Assembly: GCA_014361195.1 (NCBI GenBank) | Contig: JACIWA010000001.1 | Coordinates: forward strand, 1 to 64,000 | DNA from: Thermoplasmatales archaeon | GTDB lineage: Archaea; Thermoplasmatota; E2; UBA202; JdFR-43 | DNA: 64,000 nt | Direction: 5' to 3' | Notes under the pieces: model-generated | The model's database searches: none | Told to the model about the DNA's origin: nothing | Seen by the model: the letters and a program-made list of their open reading frames with translations, nothing else | Shown here: positions 7,024 to 46,900 of the stretch, one piece after another | Layout: the number at the start of each line of letters is the position of its first letter | Numbering within the stretch: position 1 is the first letter of the stretch | Made by a program: the position numbers and the translations under genes

Positions 7024-8616
7024 ATGCCGAAATATATTGGAATAACCGGAGGGGTTTTATCAGGCTTGGGAAAAGGAATAATCACTTCTTCAATTGGCTT
7101 ACTCTTAAAAAGCAGGGGCTATAATGTTACAGCAATAAAAATAGATCCTTATATAAATTGTGATGCGGGAACAATGAATCCCTATCAGCATGGAGAAGTT
7201 TTTGTTCTCTCGGATGGGGGAGAAGTTGATCTTGATCTGGGCAATTATGAAAGATTTTTGGATATAAATCTTAAAAGAGATAACAATATCACTACAGGGA
7301 AAATATATAAAAATGTTATTGAAAAAGAGAGAAAGGGAGAATATTTAGGAAAAACTGTTCAAATTGTTCCTCACATTACCGATGAAATAAAGGGGTGGAT
7401 AAGAAGGGTTGCGAAAGAAAGCGGGGCGGATTTTTGCCTTATTGAAATAGGTGGCACAGTAGGAGATATAGAATCAATGCCTTTCCTTGAATCAATGAGA
7501 CAGCTTTATATAGAAGAGGGGCGTGAAAATGTTCTATTTGTTCATACAACCCTTGTCCCTGTTTTGCAAGTTGTTGGAGAGCAGAAAACAAAACCAACAC
7601 AGCATAGCGTTAAGGAGCTGAGAGCAATAGGAATAAATCCAGATATTATAGTCGGGAGAAGCATTAAAGAGCTGAGCAAGGAAACAAAGGAAAAAATTTC
7701 TCTTTTCTGCAATGTGCCAGTTGAAGGAGTATTTTCCTCTCCAGATGTTGGAAACATATATGAAATACCTCTTCTTTTAGAAAAACAGGGCTTATCCCAT
7801 TATATAATGAAGAGATTCAACATTCCTTACAAGGAAGCAGATCTGGAAGAATGGAAAAATTTTGTTGAGCGAATGAACAATGTGAAGAAAGAGGTAAGCA
7901 TAGCAATTGTTGGAAAATATACTCATCTTGCAGATTCATATCTGAGCATAATAGAAGCCTTTCATCATGCGGGCTCTAAAAATAGGACAAAAGTAAATAT
8001 TGTATGGGTTGAGGCGGAAGAGCTAGAAAGAGGAAAAACAAACGCCCTTGAAGGAGTGGATGGAATTCTTGTGCCAGGGGGCTTTGGCGTGAGGGGGGCG
8101 GAGGGAAAGATAAGGGCGATTAATTTTGCGAGAGAGAAGGAGAAGCCATTTTTGGGTATATGCTTTGGGTTTCAGCTGGCAATTGTTGAGTATGGAAGGA
8201 ATGTGATAGGGCTTGATTGCAATTCACTGGAAATGGATAATAAAACGAGGCATCCGATAATAACATTATTGCCGGAGCAGAGAGGAATTGATAAGATGGG
8301 AGGGACAATGAGGCTTGGAGAAGATGAAATAGTAATAAAAGAAAATACCCTCGCCCACAGGCTTTATGGAAAGGAAAAAATTTATGAAAGGCACCGCCAC
8401 CGCTATGAAGTAAATCCGGATTATTTTGAAATACTTGAGAAAAATGGGATTGTTTTCTCTGGATTTTCTGGAAAAAGAGTTGAAATAATTGAGTTGCCAT
8501 CTCATCCTTACTTTATAGCTTCTCAATTTCATCCTGAATTCACATCTCGCCCGTTGAAGCCATCTCCTCTTTTTGATGGCCTTGTAAGAGCATCTAATAA
8601 ACAGTTACTCCCATAA
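7024..8616 (+). CDS. pyrG: CTP synthase
   Basis: A 530-residue enzyme making CTP from UTP, ATP and glutamine. The N-terminal synthase domain starts with [18 protein letters not shown] and contains [20 protein letters not shown]. The C-terminal class I glutaminase domain holds the nucleophile Cys near residue 380 (GICFGFQLA) and the His/Glu pair in HPEFTSRP. Length and motif order are normal. The ATG at 7024 directly precedes the canonical start. The stop overlaps the convergent ACT-regulator gene by 23 bases. This is a housekeeping pyrimidine-synthesis gene. Confidence 0.98.
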
Positions 8617-9091
8617 CCCCTCTTGCTTTCCTCAATTTTTTTATCAGCTTTGCTGGAACTGGCTTTTCTGTTACAATAAAAAGCTTTGGCTCTTCACTAA
8701 TCATATAGTCATCTACATTTGCCTGCCTTATGCTTATTCCTTCTCCTGCAATTATCTCAGAAACACTTGCAAGTATTCCGGGCATTGAAGCATCTTTTGG
8801 TATTATCTCTATAACACCCCATCCCATTTTTGGAGCAAGCAATTTAAAACTGCATGTTGGCATCAGATTTGAAAAAATTTTTCTCAGCTCCCTGTTTTTT
8901 TCAATTATTTCAACGGTATTCATTACAACTCTTCTATCAACATTTATTGCTCTCGCAATTTTTGAAAAAGAAAGCTCTATGTTTCCACAATAAACTTTTC
9001 CTTTTATAACACTCAGCCCATATGAAAGAAATAGTTGAATAACCTTTTGCTGTGCTTGTCCTCCAAAATAAGAGATAATTTTTTTCCACAT
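8594..9091 (-). CDS. ACT-domain transcriptional regulator (COG2150-like)
   Basis: With the start chosen at ATG 9091 (MWKKIISYF) the protein has 165 residues. An N-terminal helix-turn-helix-like half ([18 protein letters not shown]) is followed by an ACT domain ([20 protein letters not shown], then a second half ending [11 protein letters not shown]). This matches archaeal predicted regulators of amino acid metabolism, in which the ACT domain binds an amino acid. The frame is open upstream to TTG 9136, but that region overlaps the repeated operator-like elements, so the shorter start is preferred. It is divergent from trpB2, which suggests it controls trpB2 and itself in response to tryptophan or another amino acid. 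That link is inference. Confidence 0.75.
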
Positions 9092-9128
9092 GCTAATAAT
9101 GTCTAATAAATTAAAATAATTTGCTACC

Positions 9129-9180
9129 ATGAACAAAAATTTTCTATTATGAACAAAAATATACTTTAATGAACAAATTT
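9129..9180. promoter_or_regulatory. Three operator-like direct repeats spaced exactly 20 bp
   Basis: ATGAACAAAAAT occurs at 9129-9140 and 9149-9160, and ATGAACAAATTT at 9169-9180. The period is exactly 20 bp, about two DNA turns, so the copies face the same side. They lie between the divergent ACT regulator (start about 9091) and trpB2 (start 9219), just upstream of the trpB2 TATA-like sequence TTAAATATTA (9192-9201). A weaker similar stretch, ATACAAAAAT, follows at 9181-9190. This layout fits cooperative binding by the neighbouring regulator. Confidence 0.6.
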
Positions 9181-9218
9181 ATACAAAAATGTTAAATATT
9201 ACTATTTAATTCATTTTT

Positions 9219-10577
9219 ATGAAAAAGATAATAATTGATGAGGAAGAAATGCCTGATAGATGGTATAATTTGCAGTCGGAAATTAAAGCTCCTCCTCCAC
9301 TAAATCCATCAACTCTTGAGCCAGTGAAAGCGAGCGATTTAGAAAAAATTTTTCCAAGAGAGCTAATAAGGCAAGAGTTAAGTGAGGAAAAATGGATTTC
9401 TATACCTCAGGAAGTTAGGGAAATATATAGGATATGGAGGCCAACTCCTCTTTACAGAGCGGAAAGACTTGAAAAATTTTTAAAAACTCCAGCAAAAATA
9501 TATTACAAATGGGAAGGAACAAGCCCTCCTGGAAGTCATAAGCCAAATACTGCGGTTGCACAGGCATATTATAATTCAAGAGAAGGAATTGAAAGGTTGA
9601 CAACTGAAACCGGGGCGGGGCAGTGGGGCTCCGCGCTGGCATTTGCTTGTTCTGTTTTTGGGCTGAAATGCACAGTTTATATGGTTAAATGCAGTTTTGA
9701 GCAGAAGCCTTACAGGAGGATACTTATGGAGACATGGGGTGCGGAAGTGATAGCGAGTCCGAGCGGAAATACAGATTTTGGGAGGAAAGTTCTAGAGGAA
9801 GATCCAGATAGCTCTGGAAGCCTTGGAATAGCAATAAGTGAGGCAATTGAGGATGCTATAACTCATGAAAATACTAAATATTCTCTTGGCTCGGTTCTGA
9901 ATCATGTATTACTTCATCAGACAATAATAGGGCTTGAGTTGAAAAAACAATTTGAGAAAATAGATTCCTATCCAGATATGATTTTTGGATGTGTTGGAGG
10001 GGGTAGCAACTTTTCTGGTGGAATATTTCCATTTATCCCAGATAAAATAAAAGGCAATGAAATCAGATTTATAGCTTGCGAGCCAACCGCATGCCCGAGC
10101 TTAACAAAAGGAATTTATACATACGATTATGGCGACACTGCAAAAATGACACCTCTTTTGAAAATGTTTACCCTCGGCCACTCTTTTATTCCTCCCGCAA
10201 TTCACGCGGGTGGCCTCCGCTACCATGGGGATGCACCTTTATTATGTAAAATTGTGAAGGATGGAATTGTTGAAAAAAGAGCTTATAGCCAAAAAGAGGT
10301 GTTTGAGGCGGCGAAAATATTTGCAAAGAGTGAGGGATTTTTAATTGCTCCAGAAAGTGCTCATGCATTAAAAGGTGTTATAGATGAGGCAATTAAATGC
10401 AAAAAAGAAAATGAGGAAAAAACAATTTGTTTTTTAAATAGTGGTCATGGAGCTTTTGATCTATCTGCATATGATATTTACAATAGAGGAGCATTGCAAA
10501 ACTATGAGCTATCTGATAAAGAAATATTTAATGCATTGAAGAAATCAAATATAAATATTGATAAATTATATACTTAG
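9219..10577 (+). CDS. trpB2: TrpB2-type tryptophan synthase beta chain
   Basis: A 452-residue PLP enzyme of the TrpB2 class, longer at the N-terminus than TrpB1. The PLP lysine is in [11 protein letters not shown] near residue 107. Other landmarks are [15 protein letters not shown], the phosphate-binding [11 protein letters not shown], and the C-terminal [10 protein letters not shown] and [10 protein letters not shown]. TrpB2 converts indole or phosphoserine with serine to tryptophan, often without a TrpA partner; no trpA or other trp gene is adjacent. The ATG lies 18 bases after a TATA-like TTAAATATTA, so the mRNA is probably leaderless or nearly so. Upstream repeats suggest control by the divergent ACT regulator. 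Confidence 0.93.
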
Positions 10578-10613
10578 AAAACATAGTATATATACTTAAT
10601 AAACTATGTATCT
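10571..10613. repeat. Palindrome-bearing repeat, copy A
   Basis: An AT-rich element between the convergent ends of trpB2 and the thioredoxin-like gene. It contains TACTTAG, the perfect palindrome AGTATATATACT (10585-10596) and a longer inverted repeat ACATAGT/ACTATGT (10581-10607). About 34 of 43 positions match copy B at 12954-12996 in the same orientation. It may be a bidirectional terminator or a recombination site; the sequence alone does not decide. Confidence 0.45.
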
Positions 10614-11380
10614 CAATTTAATAAACTCAATTTTACCGCGTCTACATATTCCGCAAGGAAATAAGGAAATGGTTTTTCCCATGGATTTTTTGCTATATGC
10701 GGAATTGCATTTGAAATGGTTGCAATAATGGCTATATTATCTTTTTCTATATCTGGAAATGTTAAGTTTCCATGAACTTTTTTACCATCCCATATCTTTA
10801 CTTTTTCATATTTTTCCCTTATAAAAACATATTCATTGAAAGCATAGTCAAGAAAAGCATATCTAAATGGCTTGCCCGCATAGTCATTCCATCTCGAATT
10901 TATCTCCGCTATATAAACACGCAAATGCCCAAAATATGGCTTGCCTTCCTTGTTTACTAATTTTATTCCCACTTCAATTTCCGCTTCCCCCAGCCATTTA
11001 GCATTTATTTCAATTTCAACATTTCTCACAGCCCTTTTACTAGCATTCTCTATAGCATTTTTATAGTCACTATAAACTGTGCCTGGATTATAATCAACAA
11101 CTTCATACCCACCATCAATATAAAGCATTGGAGCATATGCATCTCTGAGCCAAGAGCCTCGCAAACTCGCAATTTCGCTTTTATCATAAACAAGGGTAAC
11201 ATAGCAAAAATCAAGCTCACCTGACAGAGCCTGCAAGGCATCACTTGCCTTGGGGCAATGCGGGCACCAGCTCAGCGTGCCGAGCTCCGCAAAAACCTTC
11301 CTCGAGCTAACTTCTCCTTTTGCTGGAAAAAATAATGCAATGAATAGAATAGCAACAATTGCGATTGTTTTAAGCCTCAT
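10613..11380 (-). CDS. Secreted thioredoxin-like protein with CPHC motif
   Basis: A 255-residue protein with a signal peptide (TIAIVAILFIALFFPAKG). A thioredoxin-like domain follows, with the redox motif WCPHCPKA near residue 38, then a region with YAPMLYIDGGYEVV containing the cis-Pro-like turn. The C-terminal half (from about residue 120) is a beta-rich domain, probably Ig-like. The CPHC dithiol is typical of DsbA-type oxidases. It probably acts on disulfides in exported proteins, which are numerous in this genome. It sits between the convergent trpB2 and the methyltransferase gene upstream on the same strand, with a 29-base gap to the latter. Confidence 0.75.
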   Translation of the reverse strand: MRLKTIAIVAILFIALFFPAKGEVSSRKVFAELGTLSWCPHCPKASDALQALSGELDFCYVTLVYDKSEIASLRGSWLRDAYAPMLYIDGGYEVVDYNPGTVYSDYKNAIENASKRAVRNVEIEINAKWLGEAEIEVGIKLVNKEGKPYFGHLRVYIAEINSRWNDYAGKPFRYAFLDYAFNEYVFIREKYEKVKIWDGKKVHGNLTFPDIEKDNIAIIATISNAIPHIAKNPWEKPFPYFLAEYVDAVKLSLLN

Positions 11381-12018: not shown

Positions 12019-12843
12019 ATGAGAGTGGCAATATATGCAAGAGTTAGCACTGAAGATCAAGCAAAGGAAGGGTTTAGCCTGAGCAATCAGCTTGAAAAAT
12101 TGAGAAGCTATTGCATGGCAAGGGGCTGGGAAATAGTTGGCGAGTATGTTGATGATGGATACAGCGGGAGGGATATAAGAAGGCCCGCCTACCAAAAAAT
12201 GATGGAAGAAATTGATAAATGGGATGCATTGCTTGTAATAAAAATGGATCGCATCCATAGAAATACTAAAAATTTCATGCTGATGATGGAAAAGTTGAAG
12301 TCAAAAGGAAAAGAATTTGTTTCAATGACAGAAAGCCTCGATACAAGCACCGCAATGGGAAGGTTTGTAATGGACATAATCCAGCGAATAGCCCAGCTCG
12401 AAAGCGAGCAGATCGGCGAGAGGGTATATGACGGCATGCGCCAGAAGGCGAAGGAGGGAGCGGGTTTGCTTGGCTCCCCATCACCATATGGGTATGAATA
12501 CAGGGAGGGGAAGCTTGTGGGGATTGGGGAGGAGATGAGGGTTGTTAAGGAAATTTACAGGAGATATTTGGAAGGGATGAGTTTGAGGGAAATATGTATT
12601 TGGCTGGAGGAAAATGCGAGGAGTAAGTATAATGGGAAGTGGGATAAGAAAACTGTTTCTAGAATCCTTTCGAATCCTGTATATTGCGGGCTGGTTGAAT
12701 GGGATGATATTCTTTTCCCAGGGGAGCATGAGAAAATTGTTGATATTGAAGATTTTAATCTTGTTCAAATTTTAAAGGCGAAAAAGGCAAGGAGGAAAGG
12801 AAAAATTTTTGTTATTGAGGGAATGAAAAAAAAGTATATATGA
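12019..12843 (+). CDS. Serine recombinase (resolvase/invertase family with recombinase domain)
   Basis: A 274-residue protein. The N-terminal resolvase domain (about 1-140) has the nucleophile Ser10 in YARVSTEDQAKEGFSL and the arginine-bearing KMDRIHRNTKNFM. The recombinase domain (about 150-255) reads SPSPYGYEYREGKLVGI and ends near SRILSNPVYCGLVEWDD. It stops soon after, without the cysteine zinc ribbon and coiled coil that bring large serine integrases to 450-550 residues. So it is a short member, either naturally reduced or 3'-truncated. No transposase or phage genes lie beside it. Inverted repeats stand at its start, and palindrome-rich repeats follow its stop. Confidence 0.85.
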   Translation: MRVAIYARVSTEDQAKEGFSLSNQLEKLRSYCMARGWEIVGEYVDDGYSGRDIRRPAYQKMMEEIDKWDALLVIKMDRIHRNTKNFMLMMEKLKSKGKEFVSMTESLDTSTAMGRFVMDIIQRIAQLESEQIGERVYDGMRQKAKEGAGLLGSPSPYGYEYREGKLVGIGEEMRVVKEIYRRYLEGMSLREICIWLEENARSKYNGKWDKKTVSRILSNPVYCGLVEWDDILFPGEHEKIVDIEDFNLVQILKAKKARRKGKIFVIEGMKKKYI

Positions 12844-43934: not shown

Positions 43935-46900
43935 GTGAAAATGAAGTTAAAAACATTTATTGTTGTTATGCTGTTAGCATTACCAACTACATTGCCACTT
44001 ATAAACGCACAGGGAAAACCTGATCTCTATATTGTCAGATACCGTTATTCCCCGGAAAAAATATATGAAGGAGACCAGTTAAGAATAAATATTACAGTTG
44101 GAAATAGAGGGAATGAAAAGGCGGAAAGCATTGCAATCGCTCTTTTTGTAGACAATTCAACAAATAAAGTAGATGAAGCAACAATTCCATTGCTGAATGC
44201 AAGCGAAGAAAAGGAAAAAGCATTATACTGGCTCACACAAAAAGGACAACATACTCTCTACATCTTCCTTGATTACACCTCAACAATAGACGAGCTCGAC
44301 GAGGACAACAACATCTTAACCCTCCAAATAGAGGTGCATGAGCCCCAGTACCCGCAATTCCCGCCCGCGCCTGAGCGGGCGGAATGGTGGGATGGGAGAT
44401 GGCATTACAGGGTGCCAGTTATTTTTTCGATGATCGGGGAAAGGGAAAATTATCCTTTTGAAAATAAGATGGTTTTCTGCGAGGTGAATTTTACATATCT
44501 GATGGATAAGATATATGAACTGCAGGCGGGTAGCTTTTCAAAGAGGACTTTTTATCCCAACTCCATAAGAGTTGTTGAATATGAGCTGAAAAATGATACA
44601 TGGGTTGTTAAAAGGGTTGTGGGCAGAGAGGTTATTTTTAGCGATGAGTATGACGCATATAAAAATGCAAAAGTGAAAATAGCATGGGTTATGGAAGGGG
44701 AGGCGAGGCCACATGAAAGAAGATTCTATTATATTTACTGGGATACTGTTGAAAATGGATTTAAGGAAGGAGATTTTGGAAAAATATATTCTGGAATAAA
44801 AAATTGTGAGTTTGAGGAGCAAACTTCATGGAAAAATGTTACTGAAGGAACAATAAAATGGAATATGAGTTATTATGTTGACCCTGTTGAAGGAGATGGT
44901 TGCTACAGGATATATGCAAAGGGAATTTATGGAGCGGGCTATTTATGGAGTCCGAGCTATTCAAAATTATATCAGGATTTTAGAATTCCGGATGGAGGAC
45001 TGAGTTATTATATCCTTCATTCCAAAATTTACTTTTCATCAGATATGGATGTAATGTGGAAAATAACAATTGATGGACAAACGATTGAAGCTGGCTACTC
45101 TACAGGGGGATGGAAAGAAATAACAAAAAATATTACAAGCTATTTAAAAGGAAAAAGCTATGCAACTCTTTCTTTCATAATAGATGTCCCATCCACAATA
45201 TTTGATACAAAAGAGCATGAAATTTTAGCTTATATCGATGCTTGCTGGATAGAAACTCAAAATTTGGAATATGAATTATTTGAAAATAAATCCTATGGAT
45301 GGAGTGGAAAAGTAAAAGAAATAAAGAAAAATTATGTAATAGGAGTAGCTGGAAATGATACAATAGATAGAATAGAAGTAGAAAGTGATGCGGAGCTTGA
45401 TGAGGTTGTAGCAATTCTTTACTCACCAGAAGGAAAAATTGAATCATATTCAATGCCAATAAGTGATGCAAGCTTTGAAAGAGACGGCTCAACATCTCTT
45501 TTCTCAAATAATGAATGGACCTCAAGCTCAAGAACAACAAATATTGCCCACTCTGGAACAAGAGCAATCGAATTAAAATTGAAGAATTATATAGGAAAAT
45601 GGGAATTCCAGAATAGAAAAGTTAATTCAAATGATTCTTGCGGGCTCAGGCAAAATATTACCTATGAAATACCCTTATCAAATATCCCTTCCCTCTATTT
45701 CTGGTATAGAATTGATAAATATAATTCAAAAAGCTCCCTGATATACACCCTCTATATATATGGCTCATCTCCTAAATCAATTGAAATACCAATAAGCTCA
45801 CTAACTGCAGATAAAGAATGGCACAAATATGAAATACCAAAAGAAAAAATAGATGAATGGCGCCAGAGTGGCGGATCAGTGAGCGCAATAGAAATAAAAA
45901 TTGTTGCGAGGGCGGAGGAGGCGGAAAATACAATTTATATCGATGATCTGGGCTATTCTTTTGTTCCATCAGATGGCAGGAGAGCATGGTATATAGAAAA
46001 CTTCTATAGATTTGTTAATAACCCAGGGAAATGGAGAATTGATATAATATTGGTAGATGGCTCAGATTATAGAATTGAGAAAAATATCTTCATTGATGTT
46101 GATACCGCTCCTGATTTGACAATAACAAAAATTGATTGCCCCAAAAATGTTAAAGAAGGGGAAAAAGTAAATTTTGCTGTTTATGCGAAAAATAGCGGGG
46201 TAAAAGATATAAATGAAAGTGTTCCTATAAATGTTTCCCTATTGGTATATCAGGGAAATAGTTCATATAGATTTGTTAAATCAATAAATGGGCTAAGGGT
46301 AAATGAGATAAAGAAAATAGATTTTGAATGGAGTGCAATATATGGAATGGAAGAATATAATGGTAGATGGGAAGTGGTTGCAAGGATAAATGAGAAAGGA
46401 GAAATTCTTGAAAAGGATATGAGCAATAACTGGTGGCATACTTACCTAATTGTTGAACCAATGCCTGATTTAGAGATAAACATGGATGATGTTCTTTTTG
46501 AACCTTCGAATCCATCGGAAAATTCAACATTTAATGTATCAATAATTGTTCATAATGTTGGATACAAAAATGCAACCGCAAAAATATCTCTGTATTCAAA
46601 AAAGATTGGAGATGAAAAATTCATTTTAATTCAAAATACAACAATTGAGAAATTTGTAGAAAAGAAAAAGTGGGAGAGAGTAATTATACCCTGCAAAATG
46701 GGGGGAGGAAAATATAATATAATGGTTGAAATAGCTTGTGAGGGAGAGGTAAATCTAGAAAACAATTTTGTTATAAAAGATATAAAAATAGGAATAGTGG
46801 AAGATTTTAATTCGCCATTAATAGAAGGAGTAAGAGCGGAGCCAGAATTGCAGGGAATTGGAAAATATGTAAATATTTCCGCAAGAATATATGACAATGA

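Follow-up and report, generated by a model that had tools for sequence, protein, structure and literature searches.

To our knowledge, operators have been defined for only a small number of archaeal regulators. The described system closest to the locus considered here is that of TrpY and its TRP boxes in Methanothermobacter thermautotrophicus, reportedly described by Xie and Reeve in 2005, and the TRP box, which we take to be TGTACA, is the reference for all boxes compared below. The M. thermautotrophicus TrpY acts as a repressor of both trpY and trpE, and the TRP boxes that it binds lie between these two genes (PMC6737238); a paper cited in PMC3729527 carries the title 'TrpY regulation of trpB2 transcription' (Karr et al. 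2008). The homologue of T. kodakarensis, TkTrpY (TK1227), is 42% identical to MtTrpY, falls in a separate branch of the tree and neither binds nor controls the trp operon, from which it follows that function cannot be read from membership of the family by itself; Tar (TK0271), an archaeal aromatic regulator, is an activator (PMC6737238).

Results

The window, i.e. the whole stretch of 64,000 nucleotides that was analysed, contains a regulator gene and a trpB2 gene which diverge from an intergenic region with a repeat array (Table 1). The regulator matches the NCBIfam family of TrpY over its full length (residues 2-162) with 182.8 bits against a cut-off of 180, a narrow margin, and nearly all its orthologues begin with M-W at the same trpY start position. 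Its Pfam ACT match of 21 bits lies under the 27-bit gathering cut-off; the AlphaFold2 model, for which 26 relatives were the input, has a pLDDT of 91.6 and shows a helical HTH region at the N-terminus and a C-terminal part of the ACT type, and the ACT part is strongly conserved among relatives. Foldseek placed this model near amino-acid-binding ACT enzymes and Lrp-type regulators (PH0061, ST1022, Lrp), and a sequence search found no TrpY homologue with a solved structure. Lrp/AsnC proteins share with TrpY the N-terminal HTH, the C-terminal alpha/beta ACT-like ligand domain and the formation of multimers on phased sites, but their TM-scores are low (about 0.3) and the family is absent among the Pfam and NCBIfam matches of the regulator, TrpY being a family of its own. 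An earlier note on this DNA had held that ACT regulators of this type have no known operator, and this was wrong, since the protein belongs to the TrpY family, whose M. thermautotrophicus member binds published TRP boxes (PMC6737238).

A second TrpY-like paralogue, 39% identical and scoring 138 bits, below the family cut-off, is encoded on the minus strand of contig 8 of the same genome (G000, about 45182-45690; L033:3182-3691). It lies ~320 bp from a divergent gene for a TIP49/RuvB-like AAA ATPase, with neither a box array nor an aromatic gene beside it.

Table 1. Features of the trpY-trpB2 locus (positions in the window)
Feature	Position	Strand	Basis or remark
trpY, TrpY-family regulator, 165 aa, N-terminal winged HTH and C-terminal ACT domain	8594..9091	-	NCBIfam NF053754 TrpY_fam
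Putative trpY TATA box	9107..9120	-	AT-rich, ~16-29 nt 5' of trpY ATG; read from the sequence and from archaeal promoter geometry
Putative operator module 1, ATGAACAAAAATTTTCTATT	9129..9148	+	Second half most diverged; module surplus relative to the sister genome
Putative operator module 2, ATGAACAAAAATATACTTTA	9149..9168	+	Boxes 9150 and 9160; G9151 in 32/33 and C9164 in 33/33 genomes
Putative operator module 3, ATGAACAAATTTATACAAAA	9169..9188	+	Boxes 9170 and 9180; G9171 in 33/33 genomes
Putative trpB2 TATA box, TTAAATAT	9192..9199	+	Immediately 3' of the array; aligns with TTTATATA/TTTAAATA in all orthologous regions
trpB2, TrpB-like PLP enzyme, 452 aa	9219..10577	+	NCBIfam NF009057 (722 bits) and TIGR01415 (653 bits), both over cut-off

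Between the start codons of the regulator (ATG at 9091, minus strand) and of trpB2 (ATG at 9219, plus strand), the 9-mer ATGAACAAA occurs in three exact copies on the plus strand (9129-9137, 9149-9157 and 9169-9177), with a step of 20 bp. The earlier note had reported three repeats at this spacing, and the copies are indeed exact; the unit, however, is neither 9 nor 12 bp long but a 20-bp module, present three times over 9129-9188, and its spacing of 20 bp spans two steps of an array with 10-bp pitch. Each module holds two TRP-box-like hexamers, so that successive hexamers begin exactly 10 bp apart: TGAACA at 9130, TTTTCT at 9140, TGAACA at 9150, TATACT at 9160, TGAACA at 9170 and TATACA at 9180, followed by TGTTAA at 9190, which overlaps into the trpB2 TATA box. 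It counts against reading the array as an operator of TrpY that the boxes of the window are TGAACA and TATACT, not TGTACA, and that the box at 9140 is a poor one. Given the putative TATA box upstream of trpY, the promoter of this gene would be leaderless.

The survey of related loci used one narrow peptide pattern and yielded almost only Thermoplasmatota. It found the divergent trpY-trpB2 pair at 34 de-duplicated loci of this phylum, the window included, to which one more (L165) was added later, and this order holds in most relatives that have both genes. When 33 intergenic regions with a gap of <200 bp, again including that of the window, were aligned, only one block proved alignable, namely AATGTAYAAAATTRTACATTAAWGTACA together with the trpB2 TATA box that comes after it, and its flanks were not. 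The block consists of three boxes at 10-bp pitch, in which one position is nearly invariant and two are fully so (Table 1). The consensus of the orthologous boxes, TGTAYA/TRTACA/WGTACA, is TGTACA-like, and the copies in the window are variants of it; TATACA at 9180 is retained for the most part in the family and order to which the window belongs. The autocorrelation of TGTACA-like hexamers peaks at lags of 10, 20 and 30 bp, with z of about 50, 34 and 22 (values uncorrected for relatedness). In every genome box 9170 lies 21-23 bp from the trpB2 TATA box, whereas the distance to trpY ranges from 60 to 93 bp, and it is this constancy on one side against variation on the other which suggests a fixed coupling of the operator to the trpB2 promoter.

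The pair and its array are thus conserved across many uncultured Thermoplasmata, the organism of the window included. Judged by footprinting, the putative operator is real, conserved and functional, and joins the known TrpY/TRP-box kind. The proposal of helically phased repeats in a divergent promoter, next to an ACT-domain regulator and trpB2, is borne out by the array in orthologous promoters, and phylogenetic footprinting, which had been named as a check, found the motif kept 5' of orthologous trpY-trpB2 pairs throughout the phylum. A local amino-acid-responsive circuit, putative as it is, is well supported.

The array is also unique in its genome. The 1.25-Mb genome holds 23 single copies of ATGAACAAA, and exact pairs of it at 17-23 bp start-to-start occur only twice, both at the trpY-trpB2 locus; the reversed control pattern at the same pair spacing gave none in the whole genome. 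The regulon was judged by a 45-bp operator profile (R1) together with sequence patterns. This profile, derived from these same promoters and hence informative for the absence of other sites and not for the re-finding of known ones, picks out a single strong site in each family genome, at the trpY-trpB2 locus, with an E of 1.9e-8 in the organism's own genome, where the next match (E 0.03) is noise. It finds no site above noise in family genomes that do not have trpB2 or have it relocated from trpY, and one genome with relocated trpB2 (G015) retains degenerate traces of the operator.

A second exact TGWACA-N14-TGWACA site (contig 4, 86639), 5' of a phenylacetate-CoA-ligase-like gene, was rejected as chance because it is missing from the sister species and from the family. 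Among the weak additional profile matches in f4 genomes, one is another trpB2 promoter (G059) and the others lie 5' of unrelated or no clear genes. In one f4 genome (G064, L189-L192) isolated operator-like palindromes such as ACATTAATGTACATTTTTGTACATT occur at other intergenic places, with no aromatic gene recognised nearby.

The closest comparison for the length of the array is the sister genome (G001), whose TrpY is 87% identical and whose intergenic region measures 107 bp vs 127 bp here, i.e. exactly 20 bp less; in most family members it is about 107-116 bp. The third copy in the window is best read, from these lengths, as a putative lineage-specific gain of one 20-bp module with preservation of phase.

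In the organism's own genome (96% complete) the search for TrpA gave nothing beyond a sub-threshold match of 49 residues, and for TrpC and TrpE there was no match; TrpB2 is therefore probably stand-alone. The remainder of the tryptophan pathway seems to have been lost from the organism, and its TrpB2 probably works on salvaged indole under the control of the trpY circuit.

Elsewhere in the phylum TrpY is divergent to ADH synthase, chorismate mutase or trpA (L016, L030, L045, L048, L050, L151, L157, L160), all of them aromatic amino-acid genes, and these TrpY promoters often carry TGTACA-type boxes. Several relatives (L032, L088, L089, L101, L015) have an extra pair of TGTACA-type boxes between the trpY TATA box and the start codon, e.g. 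AGTACAAAATTGTACGTT. Such a geometry is a repressing one and fits autorepression; the trpY-proximal pair is missing from the window, which weighs against autorepression of trpY there.

Discussion

The locus shares with that of M. thermautotrophicus the NCBIfam family of its regulator, the combination of HTH and ACT domains, the divergent promoter, the TGTACA-like boxes (as we understand the methanothermobacterial ones) and trpB2 as a target. It differs in that TrpY of M. thermautotrophicus lies beside a complete trpEGCFBAD operon and regulates several promoters, whereas trpB2 is the only recognisable target here, and in that the boxes drift to TGAACA/TATACT and keep an exact 10-bp pitch in 20-bp modules, unlike the TRP boxes of M. 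thermautotrophicus as we know them. A trp biosynthetic operon as TrpY target was not found in this genome; such a target belongs to the TrpY of M. thermautotrophicus, does not define the family and is lacking for TkTrpY as well. With TkTrpY the regulator shares homology, and differs from it in that TkTrpY was shown neither to bind nor to regulate the trp operon. What is new, for the TrpY/TRP-box kind, is the modular operator and the unusual setting.

We consider it probable that the repeats serve the adjacent TrpY as its operator, built of tandem 20-bp modules, at which bound TrpY most likely blocks the trpB2 promoter while its ACT domain senses an aromatic amino acid. TrpY dimers are predicted to occupy the modules from one side of the helix, in the space between the TATA boxes of the divergent genes, and would most likely keep TBP/TFB off the trpB2 promoter, and off that of trpY as well; tryptophan or another aromatic amino acid, sensed by the ACT domain, would set occupancy or multimerisation. 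Since the target is presumably a stand-alone TrpB2, the circuit would adjust the amount of tryptophan made from salvaged indole. It is reasonably plausible, further, that we deal with a dedicated TrpY-trpB2 circuit which, after the loss of de novo tryptophan synthesis, tunes the salvage of indole to tryptophan, and whose operator may evolve by whole 20-bp (two-turn) modules in phase with the trpB2 TATA box.

TrpY could be a constitutive repressor of trpY and trpB2 that does not respond to amino acids, or its signal could be Phe, Tyr or indole in place of Trp; the sub-threshold Pfam score of the ACT domain fits this, and trpB2 of M. thermautotrophicus is reportedly repressed without the tryptophan-driven assembly needed at the trp operon. 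We hold this to be possible but rather doubtful, as the ACT fold is predicted with high confidence, its matches by foldseek are amino-acid-binding ACT and Lrp proteins, and this part of the protein is strongly conserved.

The main rival to repression is activation from the same site, in which TrpY, bound just 5' of BRE/TATA, would recruit TBP/TFB and induce trpB2 when aromatic amino acids are scarce. An array that lies 5' of the trpB2 TATA box, ends at it and keeps its fixed distance is what one would expect of a factor touching the basal machinery, and Tar, a different archaeal aromatic regulator, does activate; however, the characterised TrpY is a repressor, and the trpY-proximal boxes of several relatives are in a repressing position. 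Activation is, in our view, unlikely, and repression is the likely action of TrpY on trpB2.

That the array is a true operator bound by some other protein, for instance of the Lrp/AsnC family or the TrpY-like paralogue of contig 8, is very unlikely. Lrp proteins too are generally known to bind phased sites, and the genome does encode this second, sub-threshold TrpY-like protein, but the latter adjoins unrelated genes, and matches of the profile exceed noise only at divergent trpY-trpB2 pairs, whereas family genomes that have trpY by itself show none. That the repeats arose by chance or by recent slippage, for which one may cite the AT-rich region and the one lineage-specific module, is contradicted by the conserved footprint, the array being kept across the phylum; no 9-mer recurred three times at 20-bp steps in any of 20,000 shuffles that preserved the dinucleotides of this intergenic DNA, and this origin is extremely improbable.

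With TrpY as the probable binder, the footprint offers a precise candidate binding site for the family across Thermoplasmatota. The regulator tracks aromatic amino-acid genes, and the divergent neighbours of its homologues may serve as a guide to its wider role. That it is tied to trpB2 in a genome from which the other trp genes appear to be missing bears on the role of lone TrpB2 enzymes.

Two neighbours of trpB2 may be mentioned in addition. A gene on the minus strand (10613-11380), convergent with trpB2, encodes a putative secreted protein of 255 aa with a CPHC thioredoxin-like motif and no Pfam match. A few genes from trpB2, on the plus strand (12019-12843), there is a serine recombinase with Resolvase and Recombinase domains, which adjoins genes reading like SRP19 and ribosomal protein S8e.
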